Shown here piece by piece: positions 15,126 through 20,633 of a stretch of DNA of 42,932 nucleotides (position 1 is the stretch's first letter; each line of letters opens with the position of its first letter). Source of the DNA: Bacillota bacterium (GTDB lineage Bacteria; Bacillota; Limnochordia; DUMW01). The stretch lies in contig DUMW01000046.1 in NCBI GenBank assembly GCA_012839765.1, positions 1-42,932 of the forward strand, given 5' to 3'. The notes below the pieces were generated by a model. The model worked only from the letters and a program-made list of their open reading frames with translations, searched no databases and was not told the DNA's origin. The translations under genes were made by a program, and so were the position numbers.

Positions 15126-15172
15126 AGTGTTCCTGCCTCACTTCTTTTCTTATTGGTAACCCTTGGGTGATG

Positions 15173-15190
15173 TGTATCTATTTAGATACA
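15173..15190. promoter_or_regulatory. Palindrome upstream of the SGNH hydrolase gene
   Basis: TGTATCTA-TT-TAGATACA is an 18-base inverted repeat with perfect 8-bp arms, 48 bases upstream of the hydrolase start. It looks like a dimeric repressor site. No cognate regulator is encoded next to it. Confidence 0.5.
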
Positions 15191-15339
15191 AGAATGAAGA
15201 TCCCTGCGTCCTAGGTGATTCGTTTTGTATTATCTATCTGTATCGAAGTCTAGGTTTATCCTTTGCTGACGGGGGCTTTGCCGAGAAGATGGGGAAGAGC
15301 ATAGGGATTGTTTAACGGATAAATCGAATATTGTACATA

Positions 15340-15393
15340 AAAGCTCTGTCCTTTCACGATAAATTGACAGGACAAGCTTTATTTACATACAAT
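15340..15393 (+). promoter_or_regulatory. Promoter overlapped by an inverted repeat
   Basis: TTGACA (15364-15369) and TACAAT (15388-15393) are spaced by 18 bases. An inverted repeat, AAAGCT-c-TGTCCT (15340-15352) and AGGACA-AGCTTT (15369-15380), straddles the -35 and fills the spacer. This arrangement suggests a repressor that blocks RNA polymerase. The promoter drives the zinc-ribbon and GlpX-like genes. Confidence 0.65.
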
Positions 15394-15402
15394 GAATCTG
15401 TG

Positions 15403-15477
15403 AGTCCTCGCTCGGTCCCTCCGGCACTTTTCGAGAGTGCTTTGACGGCACGCAACCTCGGTTAGCGTGGGCGGACT
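15403..15477 (+). ncRNA. Candidate structured leader RNA
   Basis: The transcript from the upstream promoter should begin near 15400. AGTCC (15403-15407) can pair with GGACT (15473-15477), enclosing two local hairpins: GCACT/AGTGC (15424-15440) and CACGC/GCGTG (15449-15469). This is a three-way-junction-like shape. It ends about 30 bases before the start codon. I recognise no known riboswitch core in it. The pairings are short and need covariation support. Confidence 0.4.
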
Positions 15478-15508
15478 TCACCAGTACATATTATTTTGGA
15501 GGGATAGT

Positions 15509-15766
15509 ATGCCTGCTTCTCCGAGGGAACACTCTACGGTCAATCTGGGTCTGAAGAAGGTCATTCAGGAGCGTCCTTGTATGGTCTGCGGCCATATTTA
15601 TTCCAACAGTACTCTTAATCTAGTTAGTGATGGTCGGGACACCGTTGCTGTTTGCGAGCATTGTTCCGACCGATTTGGACTTTATCGCTGTCCCGTTTGT
15701 CAACGCTTGGTAGTGCATTTGTACGAAGGATTGAATGGACTTGCCTGCTGTTTGATGTGCCTGTAG
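15509..15766 (+). CDS. Small zinc-ribbon protein, unknown function
   Basis: This 85-residue protein has four CxxC-type knuckles: CMVC near residue 24, CEHC near 50, CPVC near 59 and a CCLMC motif at the very C-terminus. Such an arrangement should bind two zinc ions as zinc ribbons. I do not recognise a named family. The start is ATG 15509 after GGAGGG; a longer frame exists but has no ribosome binding site. It ends 24 bases before the GlpX-like gene and shares its promoter and leader, so the two products probably act together, for example as a regulatory or scaffold complex (inference). No catalytic signature is visible. Confidence 0.7.
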   Translation: MPASPREHSTVNLGLKKVIQERPCMVCGHIYSNSTLNLVSDGRDTVAVCEHCSDRFGLYRCPVCQRLVVHLYEGLNGLACCLMCL

Positions 15767-15790
15767 CGTTCATGGGGAAAGGGGTTCGGC

Positions 15791-16783
15791 ATGCTGGAAA
15801 CAGGTACTGCTGTAGAGCGGGAACTGTTGATGGACTTCGTACGGGTTACTGAGGCGGCAGCCCTCCGGGCCGCCTCCTTTATGGGTAAAGGAACCGCGGA
15901 AGCGGCGGCGAGGGCGGCTGTTGATGGGATGCTGGGGATGTTCTCGCTGGTAAATATTGATGGCGTGATCAAGCATCCCCAGGGCAAACCGGAGTTTGCT
16001 CCTTTGCTGGATTACGGTACTGCCGTGGGTAGGGGAGTGGGGCCCAAGTTGGACGTGGTGCCTCTTCCCATCGATGGCAGTCGGCTAGTGGCTTTGGGTT
16101 TGCCTAACGCCCTCTCGGTTTTAGTGGTGGCCCGGCGGGGTAGTTTTCACAATATTCCAACTAAATATGTGCTGAAGCTTGCTGTGGGTCCCAAGGCCCG
16201 GGGACATATTGATTTGTCTTTGTCTATCCGTGACAATTTGCGAATCATTGCCCGGGTGTTGCGCCGAAAACTGAAGCATTTGACTGTGGCAGTGCTGGAT
16301 CGTCCCCGAAACCAACCGTTAATCAACGAGGTACTCCAAACCGGTGTCCGGATCAAACTCATTTCCGACGGTGATGTGGCCGCAGGATTGGCTGCGGCCT
16401 TGGAATACACCGGTGTCGATGCCCTTTACGGGATCGGTGGGGCCATGGAGGCGGTGGTTACCGCGGCGGCTTTGAAATGTCTGGAGGGGGAAATCCAGGT
16501 GCAACCCTGGCCGTTGGCCGAGGAGGAGGTCCCCTGGACCGGAGCCCGGCTTCCGGTGCTTACCACCGAACAGTTGATTTGTGGGGAGGATCTGGTGTTT
16601 TGTGCCACCGGTATTACCGATGGGGATATTCTTCATGGGGTGCGCTATTACGGCGCTCGGGCGGTGACCCATTCCATCGTGTTGCGGGCCAAGACCGGTA
16701 CCCTGCGGGTGATCGAGACTAGCCACAACCTGCGCAGGAAAACCCTTCGGTCCCAAAGAACAGGCAGGGAAGTCTCACTTTAG
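15791..16783 (+). CDS. GlpX-family (class II fructose-bisphosphatase) homologue lacking catalytic residues
   Basis: The 330-residue protein aligns without gaps to Escherichia coli GlpX (recalled sequence) over residues 8-110 and again in the VGPKARGHIDLSLSIRDNLR, LISDGDVAAG, YGIGGA and ATGITDGDIL blocks. It is clearly a fructose-1,6-bisphosphatase II fold. However, the residues matching E. coli Lys29, Asp33, Glu57, Glu59 and Asp85 are Ala36, Ala40, Gln64, Lys66 and Leu92. The DPIEGT motif reads LPIDGS. Only the glutamate of the GGAPEG motif (here GGAMEA) is kept. Metal-dependent phosphatase activity is therefore unlikely. The reading frame is intact, so this looks like a maintained pseudoenzyme, perhaps a sugar-phosphate sensor. 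It follows the zinc-ribbon gene in the same transcript. Confidence 0.8.
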   Translation: MLETGTAVERELLMDFVRVTEAAALRAASFMGKGTAEAAARAAVDGMLGMFSLVNIDGVIKHPQGKPEFAPLLDYGTAVGRGVGPKLDVVPLPIDGSRLVALGLPNALSVLVVARRGSFHNIPTKYVLKLAVGPKARGHIDLSLSIRDNLRIIARVLRRKLKHLTVAVLDRPRNQPLINEVLQTGVRIKLISDGDVAAGLAAALEYTGVDALYGIGGAMEAVVTAAALKCLEGEIQVQPWPLAEEEVPWTGARLPVLTTEQLICGEDLVFCATGITDGDILHGVRYYGARAVTHSIVLRAKTGTLRVIETSHNLRRKTLRSQRTGREVSL

Positions 16784-16910
16784 CACGAATATACCAATAG
16801 CAAGAGAAAACCGATGTGCTATAAACGGGCGAGTTGATCCTGGCACAGGGGGCGAGGGATTCACTGTCATGTCTTCGGTAATTCCTTGCCGGTTTATGCT
16901 GTGATCAGGT

Positions 16911-19900
16911 ATGGGAAAAAGAACGAAGTCCAATAAGCCACGAAAGGAGCGAGGGCGGCAGAGCTTCTGGAAAGACCAGGGTAGCTCTGCCTCACCAAGG
17001 AGTATGGGTTTTCAGGTGAAAGATTTTGCTGTGCCACCGAAGGAGTTCAGGCCGGTGCCCTTTTGGTCCTGGAACGATGATCTACAGGAGGAAGAGCTGA
17101 TCCGACAGATTGCCATGATGGACGAGCAGGGGTGGGGTGGGTTTTTCATGCACTCCCGCATTGGACTGCGCACTCCGTACCTGACGGAGGAATGGATGCA
17201 TCTGGTCAAGGTCTGCGTGGAAGAAGCCAAAAAGCGGGGAATGAGTGCTTGGCTTTACGATGAAGATCGTTGGCCCAGTGGATTTGGTGGGGGAGCGGTA
17301 CCTGCCCTAGGTGAGCGGTATCGGATGAAGAATCTGGTCTTGGCCATTGATGAGATTGCTGACCCTGAGGACTTGGTGGAGATTTACCGGGTGTACCGGT
17401 GTACCTTGGATGGGGATCAGCCTCGGAACATTGAGGAGATTTCCTTGGAAGAGGCGGATGTAGCCAAGGCTGATGGATTTACAGTGCTGTATGTATATCA
17501 GCGGACTTGTCCCATCGGTCACCGTTGGTTCAACGGTTATTGTTACCCCGATTTGTTGGATCCAGTCGTTACTGATGCCTTTTTGGAGTCTACATATGAG
17601 CGTTATAAGCAGTATCTACAAGAGGACTTTGGTGGGGCGGTTCCCGGCTTTTTTACGGACGAGCCGGCCTGTCACTATCGGAATCATGCGCCGCGCCAGA
17701 GCTATCAGTGGACTCCCGCCTTTCCCCAGTGGTTTCAGGAGAAATATGGATATGATCTTACTGATCATTTCTTGTCCCTGTTTTTCGATTTAGGTGACTA
17801 CCAGAGAATCCGCTACGATTTTTGGAAGTTGCTGACCGAGTGTTTCGTGGAGAATTTCTCCAAACGGGTCTATCAGTGGTGCGAGACTCATAAGTTGAAA
17901 CTGACCGGCCATTATATGGCGGAAGAGACCTTTGTCAGTCAGATGGAATGGATCTGCAGTGCCATGCCCCATTACGAGTATATGCATGTTCCGGGCATTG
18001 ACCATCTGGCGCGCAACATCAACAATGATATTACGGCCAAGCAATGTAGCAGTGTGGCGCACCAGTTGGGCAAAAAACGGGTGCTTTCTGAGATGTTTGG
18101 GGTTAGCGGCCAGAATATGTCCATGGAAGACATGAAATGGATCGCGGACTGGCACTTTGTCCATGGTATCAACCTGGTGAACCCCCATTTGTCCCTGTAC
18201 AGTTTCCGGGGTTGTCGCAAACGGGATTATCCGCCGAACATTTTCTTCCAGCAGCCATACTGGCCCGATATGCGAGGTCTATCCGATTATCTGTCGCGAA
18301 CTTCCTATGTGTTATCCTGTGGTCGGCGGGTAACGGAGGTGCTGCTGCTGCACCCCATTGAGACTGCGTGGACGCTTTATACGCCGGGGGCAGGCCAGCG
18401 GGTCGAGGAATATTACAAGGACTTTGTGGAGATTATCGAGCAGCTTCTCCGTCAACAGATCGATTTTGATCTAGGGGATGAGGGGCTCATCGCCAAGTAT
18501 GGTAAGGTAGTCGATGGCCGCTTCCAAGTAGGTATGCAGGATTACGGTGTGGTGGTGGCACCGCCTATGCTGACCATACGTTCCAGTACATTGGAACTGT
18601 TGACCCGGTTCGCCCAAGAGGGCGGCGTTGTGCTCTTCGTGGATCAGGTGCCAAGTCTAGTTGACGGCCGACCGTCGGATCTGTTGGTGGACCAAGAGTG
18701 GATTGCCATGGAGCAATTGACGGCAGTGCTGGAAGGTCACTTGCAGGAACGGGTCCGATTGCAGGCTCCCAAGGAGGAACTTCGCCAGGCCATCTGGTAC
18801 CAGCACCGTCGTCTGGACAATGGCGACGAGATCTGGTTCTTTGCCAATACCAGTCGGGACCAGGGTGGACCAGTCCATTTGCAGCTGCCTGGTAAGAAAC
18901 ATCTGTTGCGTCTGGACAGTGAGTCGGGGCAGCTGTATCAGTTGGACAATGACAATTCCGTGACCGAGAGCTTTATCTGGAACTTTGCCCCGGCGGGTTC
19001 CCTTTTGCTCTTGGCTACTGCCGAGCCCCAACGCTATGGGTTCGTCTATCGAACTCGCAAGGAGTTCATTCCCCGCAGGGTATTGGAGCTCGATGAACCA
19101 TGGTCCTTTGAGCGCCTGGCTCCCAACGCCCTGTGCCTGGACTTCTGCCAGTACCGGGTTGGTAACGGCCAGTGGAGCGAGCCGATGTTTGTTCTCTTTG
19201 CCCTTGGGGAATTGTACCAGCTGGGTAAGACTCAGGGAGAATTTCCATTCGGCATCCGTCAGGTGTTCCAGGTGGAACAATTGCCATCCAGGGTGGCTTT
19301 GGCCATGGAGAGCCCCAGCGCGTATAGTGTGTTCCTGAACGGGCGGCGAGTTTTCACCAACGATGACGGGTATTGGCTGGATCCATCCCTCCGCAAGAAA
19401 GATGTGACCTATCTAGTGCAGGAGGGTGAGAATGTATTGGAGTACTATGGGGTGTACCGGGATCCCGAAGGTCTGAACGAGCTGTATTTCAACTGGCATT
19501 CCGGTTACATCCCTGAGCCTTTAGATCCTTCCCGTCCCTCCAGGGTGCCATCTACGGAGATCGACGCAGTCTTTGTGATTGGTGATTTCGCCCTAAAGCA
19601 GCGGGAAGGGCGGTTCGTGATTGTGAAGGAGCCCCAAGGTTTGCAGCCGATGGATATTACGAAGCAGGGTTATCCCTTCTACGCTGGGAAGGTTCGGCTG
19701 AGTACAACGGTGGAACTTGCCCAAGTGCCCCGGCGAGCCCGTCTAGTCTTTGATGGGTTTGCCGCCACGGTCGCAGAGCTAGTGGTTAACGGTGAGCATC
19801 TGGGGAAACTCATATTCGGTCCCCGGAGCTTTGATTTGGGTCAAACCCTGCGGGCCGGGACCAATCGGATTGAAGTCATCGTGACGAACAACCTACGGAA

Positions 19901-20039
19901 TCTCCTGGGTCCCCATCATCATGTTGGGGTCGAGCTGAAATCTGTTGGCCCTGGTACCTTTGTGGATCGTAGGAACTGGACCGACGAGTACAAATTTACG
20001 CCGGTGGGGCTTGGACGGGTGCGCTTGGAATTGGCATAG
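16911..20039 (+). CDS. Large glycoside hydrolase, GH106-like (alpha-L-rhamnosidase type)
   Basis: I assign this 1042-residue protein to the GH106-like group by the early FRPVPFWSWND motif, the WGGFFMHSRIGLRTPYL stretch and WLYDEDRWPSG, which build the start of a TIM barrel. Candidate catalytic carboxylates lie in GFFTDEPACH and LSEMFGVSGQ. A beta-sandwich-rich C-terminal half follows, as in rhamnosidases of this family. No signal peptide is present, so it should act on imported oligosaccharides. The first 31 residues are basic and unlike the family, and the ribosome binding site at 16911 is weak; a start at 17004 or 17016 is possible. Substrate specificity is a family-level guess. Confidence 0.7.
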   Translation: MGKRTKSNKPRKERGRQSFWKDQGSSASPRSMGFQVKDFAVPPKEFRPVPFWSWNDDLQEEELIRQIAMMDEQGWGGFFMHSRIGLRTPYLTEEWMHLVKVCVEEAKKRGMSAWLYDEDRWPSGFGGGAVPALGERYRMKNLVLAIDEIADPEDLVEIYRVYRCTLDGDQPRNIEEISLEEADVAKADGFTVLYVYQRTCPIGHRWFNGYCYPDLLDPVVTDAFLESTYERYKQYLQEDFGGAVPGFFTDEPACHYRNHAPRQSYQWTPAFPQWFQEKYGYDLTDHFLSLFFDLGDYQRIRYDFWKLLTECFVENFSKRVYQWCETHKLKLTGHYMAEETFVSQMEWICSAMPHYEYMHVPGIDHLARNINNDITAKQCSSVAHQLGKKRVLSEMFGVSGQNMSMEDMKWIADWHFVHGINLVNPHLSLYSFRGCRKRDYPPNIFFQQPYWPDMRGLSDYLSRTSYVLSCGRRVTEVLLLHPIETAWTLYTPGAGQRVEEYYKDFVEIIEQLLRQQIDFDLGDEGLIAKYGKVVDGRFQVGMQDYGVVVAPPMLTIRSSTLELLTRFAQEGGVVLFVDQVPSLVDGRPSDLLVDQEWIAMEQLTAVLEGHLQERVRLQAPKEELRQAIWYQHRRLDNGDEIWFFANTSRDQGGPVHLQLPGKKHLLRLDSESGQLYQLDNDNSVTESFIWNFAPAGSLLLLATAEPQRYGFVYRTRKEFIPRRVLELDEPWSFERLAPNALCLDFCQYRVGNGQWSEPMFVLFALGELYQLGKTQGEFPFGIRQVFQVEQLPSRVALAMESPSAYSVFLNGRRVFTNDDGYWLDPSLRKKDVTYLVQEGENVLEYYGVYRDPEGLNELYFNWHSGYIPEPLDPSRPSRVPSTEIDAVFVIGDFALKQREGRFVIVKEPQGLQPMDITKQGYPFYAGKVRLSTTVELAQVPRRARLVFDGFAATVAELVVNGEHLGKLIFGPRSFDLGQTLRAGTNRIEVIVTNNLRNLLGPHHHVGVELKSVGPGTFVDRRNWTDEYKFTPVGLGRVRLELA

Positions 20040-20078: not shown

Positions 20079-20633
20079 ATGTTTTGGGATAATCCGGGAC
20101 CGGAGAACACACAAGCCACACTGGAAATAGCTTGCAGGGAGGCAGTTGCCCGCAACATCCGGCATCTGGTGGTAGCCTCGAATGAGGGCAATACCATCCG
20201 TCAACTCTTGGCAGATTTCGACGTTGATAATCTGAATATCGTCTGCGTTACCCACCACGTGGGTTTCCGCGGCCCTGGGGTGGACGAGATGTCGGCGGAG
20301 GTACGGGAGGAATTGGCTAGTAAAGGGGTGAAGTTGCTTACCACCACCCACCTGCTGGCAGGGATTAACCGGGGTCTTCGCTATGAATTTGGCGGACTTT
20401 ATCCGCCGGAGATTATCGCCAATACTTTGCGAATGTTTGGGCAGGGTGTAAAGGTTTGTGTGGAGGTTAGCATGATGGCCCTTGACGCGGGTCTTGTGCC
20501 CTATGGGGAGGATGTGATTGCCGTGGCAGGCAAAAGTAGGGGTGCCGACACGGCTTGCGTGGTCAGGCCTGCCCATTCTACTGCCGTATTCGAGACCAAG
20601 GTCAAAGAGATTCTTTGCCGCCCGCGCCTGTAA
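20079..20633 (+). CDS. Stand-alone pyruvate kinase C-terminal-like domain protein
   Basis: The 184-residue protein resembles the alpha/beta C-terminal (allosteric) domain of pyruvate kinase, which exists as a free-standing family in many Firmicutes and archaea. The opening FWDNPGPENTQATLEIA, the HLVVASNEGNT strand-loop and the closing DTACVVRPAHS are typical. The catalytic barrel of pyruvate kinase is absent, so no kinase activity is expected; the role of the family is unknown. AAGGAGG lies well placed before ATG 20079. It follows the glycosidase by 39 bases and may be co-transcribed with it. Confidence 0.75.
   Translation: MFWDNPGPENTQATLEIACREAVARNIRHLVVASNEGNTIRQLLADFDVDNLNIVCVTHHVGFRGPGVDEMSAEVREELASKGVKLLTTTHLLAGINRGLRYEFGGLYPPEIIANTLRMFGQGVKVCVEVSMMALDAGLVPYGEDVIAVAGKSRGADTACVVRPAHSTAVFETKVKEILCRPRL

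Follow-up and report, generated by a model that had tools for sequence, protein, structure and literature searches.

A GlpX-like protein with lost metal ligands and a retained sugar-phosphate pocket in a Bacillota genome

We have analysed a GlpX-like protein encoded in a 42,932-nucleotide stretch of a Bacillota genome (this whole stretch is called the window here). Our best explanation, which we hold with moderate confidence from the comparisons below, is that this protein is a descendant of class II fructose-bisphosphatase (FBPase) which would have lost the metal-dependent phosphatase chemistry, would retain the sugar-phosphate pocket, and may have been kept for a non-catalytic use.

Results

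Layout of the locus

The GlpX-like gene lies on contig 46 of a 2.56 Mb draft assembly (121 contigs, 95.9% complete), and its genome is the sole member of its family in the genome set compared. The features of the locus are as follows.

15364..15393, forward strand: promoter-like site TTGACA-18-TACAAT from a consensus scan (11/12 match), about 115 nt 5' of the zinc-ribbon start
15509..15766, forward strand: zinc-ribbon gene (85 aa), GGAGG right before the ATG; an orphan
15791..16783, forward strand: gene of the putative GlpX-fold pseudoenzyme (330 aa), a class II FBPase homologue without the metal ligands
16911..20039, forward strand: GH106-type alpha-L-rhamnosidase-like glycoside hydrolase gene (PF17132, 67.6 bits), 127 nt after the GlpX-like gene
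20079..20633, forward strand: stand-alone pyruvate-kinase C-terminal-domain-like protein, separated from the GH106 gene by 39 nt; related to 1vp8 and 1t57

The stop codon of the zinc-ribbon gene ends at 15766 and the GlpX-like ATG is at 15791, which leaves a 24-nt gap. This spacing, the two open reading frames, the open frame of the GlpX-like gene and the four CxxC knuckles of the zinc-ribbon protein are all as given in a preliminary description of this DNA. The consensus scan has found 2 promoter-like sites against 1.5 expected by chance, and the one listed above is the better match. No match was obtained in the Rfam scan of the window, so no RNA element is recognised upstream; the short repeats in the intergenic region 15126-15508, which were considered as such an element, look like chance. 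Between the GlpX-like and GH106 genes there is just one weak terminator-like stem (16875-16892), and the GH106 gene is possibly co-transcribed with the GlpX-like gene.

The surroundings include carbohydrate genes, i.e., the GH106 gene, an SGNH hydrolase and a Gfo/Idh gene. The catalytic glpX loci that we have examined have other neighbours (DUF1786, LysE) and share no context with the GlpX-like gene. A GxDLY SGNH hydrolase beside the glpX gene L022 was considered as shared context and was rejected, since it has 35% identity to the one in the window and the arrangement differs. As a separate observation, the allosteric site of pyruvate kinase sits in its C-terminal domain, and it is curious to see a protein resembling this domain (20079-20633) near a putative pseudoenzyme with a sugar-phosphate pocket. 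The structures of its relatives 1vp8 and 1t57 have been solved, but their names go no further than hypothetical or conserved protein.

Fold and family of the GlpX-like protein

The Pfam family PF03320 spans residues 10-312 of the GlpX-like protein with 330.6 bits, and the TIGR00330 glpX model gives 276 bits (curated cut-off: 259.3). The closest PDB entry is the M. tuberculosis FBPase II, to which the identity is ~45%, and the best genomic homologue reaches 58%. An AlphaFold2 model, built with 18 homologues, has a pLDDT of 87.5 and matches 6ayu in Foldseek with a TM of 0.87. Internally the model is weak only at residues 65-71 and 248-251, the former being the loop that bears EGExDxAP in the enzymes. 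Fold, length, the 6-phosphate triad and the sugar-hydroxyl aspartates are shared with the known class II FBPases of E. coli (3d1r), M. tuberculosis (6ayu/7txb) and F. tularensis (7js3). Unlike them, the window protein has Ala, Gln and Leu in place of D33, E57 and D85 and LPIDGS in place of DPxxGT, and it stands on an isolated long branch. Judged by its sequence, this protein is a GlpX by descent, and the catalytic features tested on the alignment speak against classing it as an FBPase.

Loss of the metal-site residues

Residue equivalents were read off the common alignment and are given in E. coli numbering. The lost segments, and the stretch with the retained pocket, are listed below.

15896..15910, forward strand: first lost metal-site segment, codons 36-40, A36 (K29) and A40 (D33)
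15980..15994, forward strand: second lost metal-site segment, codons 64-68, QGKPE replaces EGEKD (E57Q, E59K, D61E)
16064..16081, forward strand: third lost metal-site segment, codons 92-97, LPIDGS replaces DPxEGT (D85L, T90S)
16166..16450, forward strand: stretch with the retained sugar-phosphate pocket, codons 126-220

The full set of changes from E. coli to the GlpX-like protein is K29 to A36, D33 to A40, E57 to Q64, E59 to K66, D61 to E68, D85 to L92, E88 to D95 and T90 to S97. Among the 32 distinct homologues of the phylum, D33, E57, E59, D85, E/D88 and T90 are present in all 32. In addition, 14 further full-length copies, which are divergent or second copies, all retain D33, E57 and D85, so that in ~46 homologues across the phylum these three residues are intact wherever covered. 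The preliminary description had listed K29, D33, E57, E59 and D85 as lost, and all five substitutions are as it stated, although two of them are weakly informative. The equivalents of K29 are Leu, Cys, Thr, Arg or Glu in otherwise intact homologues of one family plus one further homologue (L017-L020, L022, L023 and L029, mostly family f76, with intact metal ligands), and K29 is therefore not universal in class II FBPases; at E59, a second copy that is intact in other respects (L056) has Lys. Since both positions vary in intact homologues, K29A and E59K say little, and the decisive losses, as far as the alignment tells, are D33A, E57Q and D85L. The changes of E88 to Asp and of the catalytic threonine T90 to Ser97 appear mild: the M. 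tuberculosis enzyme natively has Asp at the E88 position, and its T84S mutant is slow but active (PMC5892879).

In E. coli GlpX, Ca/Mg ions sit on D85 and E213 and on D33 and E57 (PMC5892879). Hydrolysis requires a single high-affinity metal site, made of the Asp of DPxxGT and E57 (PMC10289334). Because of D33A, E57Q and D85L, this site cannot form as described, and the GlpX-like protein is very probably not a metal-dependent FBPase.

Retention of the sugar-phosphate pocket

In known enzymes the 6-phosphate is gripped by Y119, K/R164 and R166, and the sugar hydroxyls by D186, D188 and E88 (PMC5892879). The GlpX-like protein retains Y126 (Y119), R171/R173 (164/166), D193/D195 (186/188) and E220 (E213). 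Thus, in terms of aligned residues, the metal half of the active site is gone while the sugar half is untouched. The preliminary description proposed a GlpX that has lost catalysis while its fold is well kept. This is supported by the alignment, by the counts of invariant columns given below and by the model, and so is the retention of the sugar-phosphate pocket.

Such a pocket may also serve a different reaction, either with one metal on Glu213/Asp95 or metal-free. Consistent with this are the persistence of Asp95 (E88), Ser97 (T90) and Glu220 (E213), a second weak metal site in the F. tularensis enzyme that uses D116 and E214 (PMC10289334), and the carbohydrate genes around the locus. However, the sole high-affinity metal site has been lost together with the EGExD loop that it orders (D85L, E57Q), this loop is of low confidence in the model, and a single sequence can show no new conserved residue pattern. 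We therefore regard a neofunctionalised enzyme as unlikely.

Constraint or decay

We have used as reference the 76 columns that are invariant in the 32 homologues. The GlpX-like protein has changed 16 of them, while leave-one-out controls have changed 0-5, or 8 for the most divergent one (L007); judged from these counts, the losses are far beyond chance. The changes are enriched in residues 36-97 (12/25 invariant columns, against 4/51 elsewhere; Fisher p 1.3e-4, which is only indicative since the segment was picked post hoc). With 16 of 76 columns changed, the probability that these include all six metal/1-phosphate residues is 3.7e-5, and it is 1.4e-3 for the four residues named in the M. tuberculosis paper. 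Moreover, the mean N-minus-C identity is +0.10 in 440 catalytic pairs and -0.02 in pairs with the GlpX-like protein, i.e., its N-terminal active-site half does not show the excess conservation of the catalytic pairs. The fraction of changed sites climbs with site variability, from 0.21 (invariant) to 0.70 (most variable), the frame and start are intact, and few genes on the contig have a more typical codon use.

These observations bear on the alternative that the gene is a relict, in which an FBPase was no longer needed, the active site was lost and the gene is drifting to loss with its frame still open. Because the changes cluster in the metal-site segment, random decay is argued against: it would strike the invariant sites evenly, while the hits observed spare the sugar-phosphate site. 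The rise of change with site variability is as expected under purifying selection, and the open frame, intact start and normal codon use also speak against a relict. On the other hand, FBPase loss appears to be the norm in this class, as almost all class relatives have no GlpX and none has a class III FBPase over the cut-off, and the GlpX-like protein has the longest branch of the tree and lacks, in the genomes searched, a conserved orthologue that carries these substitutions. A relict, which together with a neofunctionalised enzyme is one of the two main rival readings, seems less probable to us than retention for a non-catalytic use. The pattern suggests that catalysis was lost with constraint kept elsewhere, rather than even decay; as only one sequence is at hand, very recent relaxation may have come on top. 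The selection for a non-catalytic role proposed in the preliminary description gains indirect support from the clustering of losses, while a homologue sharing the substitutions is absent from the genomes searched.

An assembly or reading artefact, such as a chimera or compensating frameshifts, was also considered, as the gene comes from a single draft assembly of many contigs. Changed and kept residues are interleaved along the full length of an alignment with hardly any gaps, several substitutions need at least 2 base changes, and the GC content at the codon positions resembles that of the neighbouring genes. Such an artefact is hardly credible.

Distribution of GlpX homologues

The search sets comprised 73 genomes of the class, a 398-genome sample of the phylum, and scans of public genome contigs and viral contigs. 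No orthologue with the D33, E57 and D85 losses was found in the class genomes, the phylum sample or the public contig scans. Thus the conservation of the motif losses in relatives, on which the preliminary description had made its reading depend, has not been borne out in these sets, and no member of a conserved pseudoenzyme clade has been found in the class, the phylum sample or the contig scans. GlpX is over the cut-off in 5 of the 72 other class genomes, all with intact active sites. In the tree, the branch of the GlpX-like protein is the longest (1.92), and the protein falls, with its exact position unresolved, in a 19-row group with L003-L006 and L010-L025, with which it has a C-terminal KTLRS tail in common.

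Other dead copies were sought among the partial or divergent hits (G274, G367, G428, G180, G184, G437) and the second copies (G127, G299, G371, G416), and all of these keep the metal ligands where covered. Several variants are worth recording in their own right. L049, L050 and L051 are very divergent GlpX-like proteins (30-34% identity, frames of 366-517 codons) with intact metal ligands; L050 and L051, from two genomes of one genus, have Tyr119 changed to Met and a nearby Lys to Arg, and L049 has Asp186 changed to Ala. Judging from these residues, the three are perhaps phosphatases for another substrate. Family f67 has tandem glpX pairs (L042/L055 and L044/L054) with intact active sites in both copies, and one copy per pair has Arg164 changed to Lys. 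L058/L059 (G180 C31) and L052 (G184 C13) are glpX pieces that lie in different frames or lack their middle part; they are likely broken glpX copies, and G180 has an intact copy too.

FBPase content of the genome and the class

The preliminary description had raised the question of a catalytic GlpX or another FBPase elsewhere in the genome. We have searched for four FBPase families and have found neither a second GlpX nor any PF06874, PF01950 or PF00316 FBPase in the source genome. A gene missed through incompleteness is possible but unlikely. Regulation of a resident FBPase was rejected as a role, since the genome has no member of PF00316, PF06874 or PF01950. None of the 73 class genomes has a class III FBPase over the cut-off, and nearly all of them are without both class II and class III FBPases at this level. 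A candidate route to fructose 6-phosphate in the class is a reversible PPi-dependent phosphofructokinase. The source genome has one phosphofructokinase (L069) with a GGDD motif at the site where this motif marks PPi-using, reversible enzymes, although NCBIfam puts L069 in an ATP-type subfamily.

As the only FBPase-like gene found in the genome, and one that passes the TIGR00330 cut-off, the GlpX-like gene might be supposed to encode a working but weak FBPase with alternative metal ligands. However, all three carboxylate ligands besides E213 are gone, the alignment shows no obvious Asp, Glu or His substitute, and the GGDD phosphofructokinase, if we read its motif properly, could run in reverse instead. 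We consider a weak FBPase very improbable.

The zinc-ribbon protein and the proposed pair

By pattern, the four CxxC knuckles of the zinc-ribbon protein make two C4 zinc ribbons. Its best Pfam match is Zn_ribbon_9 (PF02591) with 18.5 bits, under the cut-off of 29.1. The paired CxxC knuckles are common to PF02591, PF12773 (DZR) and this protein, but with a sub-cut-off match and no homologue it cannot be assigned to a family of C4-type or double zinc ribbons. Searches found no relative in the PDB, and none in the 73 class genomes, plasmids or viral contigs. The 398-genome phylum sample gave weak or unrelated matches, none of them convincing; those readable comprise ferredoxin-type ATPases, further proteins that bind metal or iron-sulphur clusters, and an unrelated protein with a single ribbon. 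A fold prediction from the single sequence has a pLDDT of 57, too poor for use.

In the flanks of 32 homologous glpX loci (at most 1.5 kb per side), no open reading frame with at least 3 CxxC was found. The preliminary description had suggested that the zinc-ribbon and GlpX-like proteins form a system; no second example appears in the class, the phylum sample or the homologous loci, and the idea of a conserved pair was rejected after searches of these genomes, of plasmids and of viral contigs. The pair is a positional association in one genome.

Discussion

If the GlpX-like protein is a pseudoenzyme kept for a non-catalytic use, it would still bind a phosphorylated sugar, e.g., fructose 6-phosphate. 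Binding might then shift the conformation or the assembly of the probably tetrameric GlpX-like body, and a partner protein would read out this shift. The obvious candidate partner, by position alone, is the neighbouring double zinc ribbon. A more specific version has a GlpX pseudophosphatase as the sensor of fructose 6-phosphate or a similar sugar phosphate; its signal would pass through the co-expressed double zinc ribbon to nucleic acid or another partner, i.e., a two-protein sensor made from a gluconeogenic enzyme in a genome without detectable FBPase. This version builds on adjacency, and we would give it only a small chance.

Several points stand against a non-catalytic use in general. 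Only one sequence is available and no orthologue with the same losses occurs in the searched sets, the long branch fits relaxed selection too, and no FBPase that could be regulated is detectable in the genome. In addition, the zinc ribbon has no relatives through which comparison could support the partner idea.

That a phosphatase fold can take on a regulatory job has a precedent in SuhB, the inositol-monophosphatase-like protein of the rrn antitermination complex (6tqn), to which the GlpX-like model has a weak Foldseek match (E 0.02). SuhB belongs to the same wider fold superfamily. However, it is of a different family, and neither a sequence relation nor a link to rRNA has been seen for the GlpX-like protein. 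Our literature search has found no GlpX pseudoenzyme or catalytically dead class II FBPase.

The putative GlpX pseudoenzyme is known from one genome and without orthologues, and it is thus a lead rather than a system. Provided that the protein is stable and that it binds a sugar phosphate, the fold of a central gluconeogenic enzyme would here have found a new use in binding or sensing, and the protein would offer a natural test of which residues serve binding and which serve catalysis.
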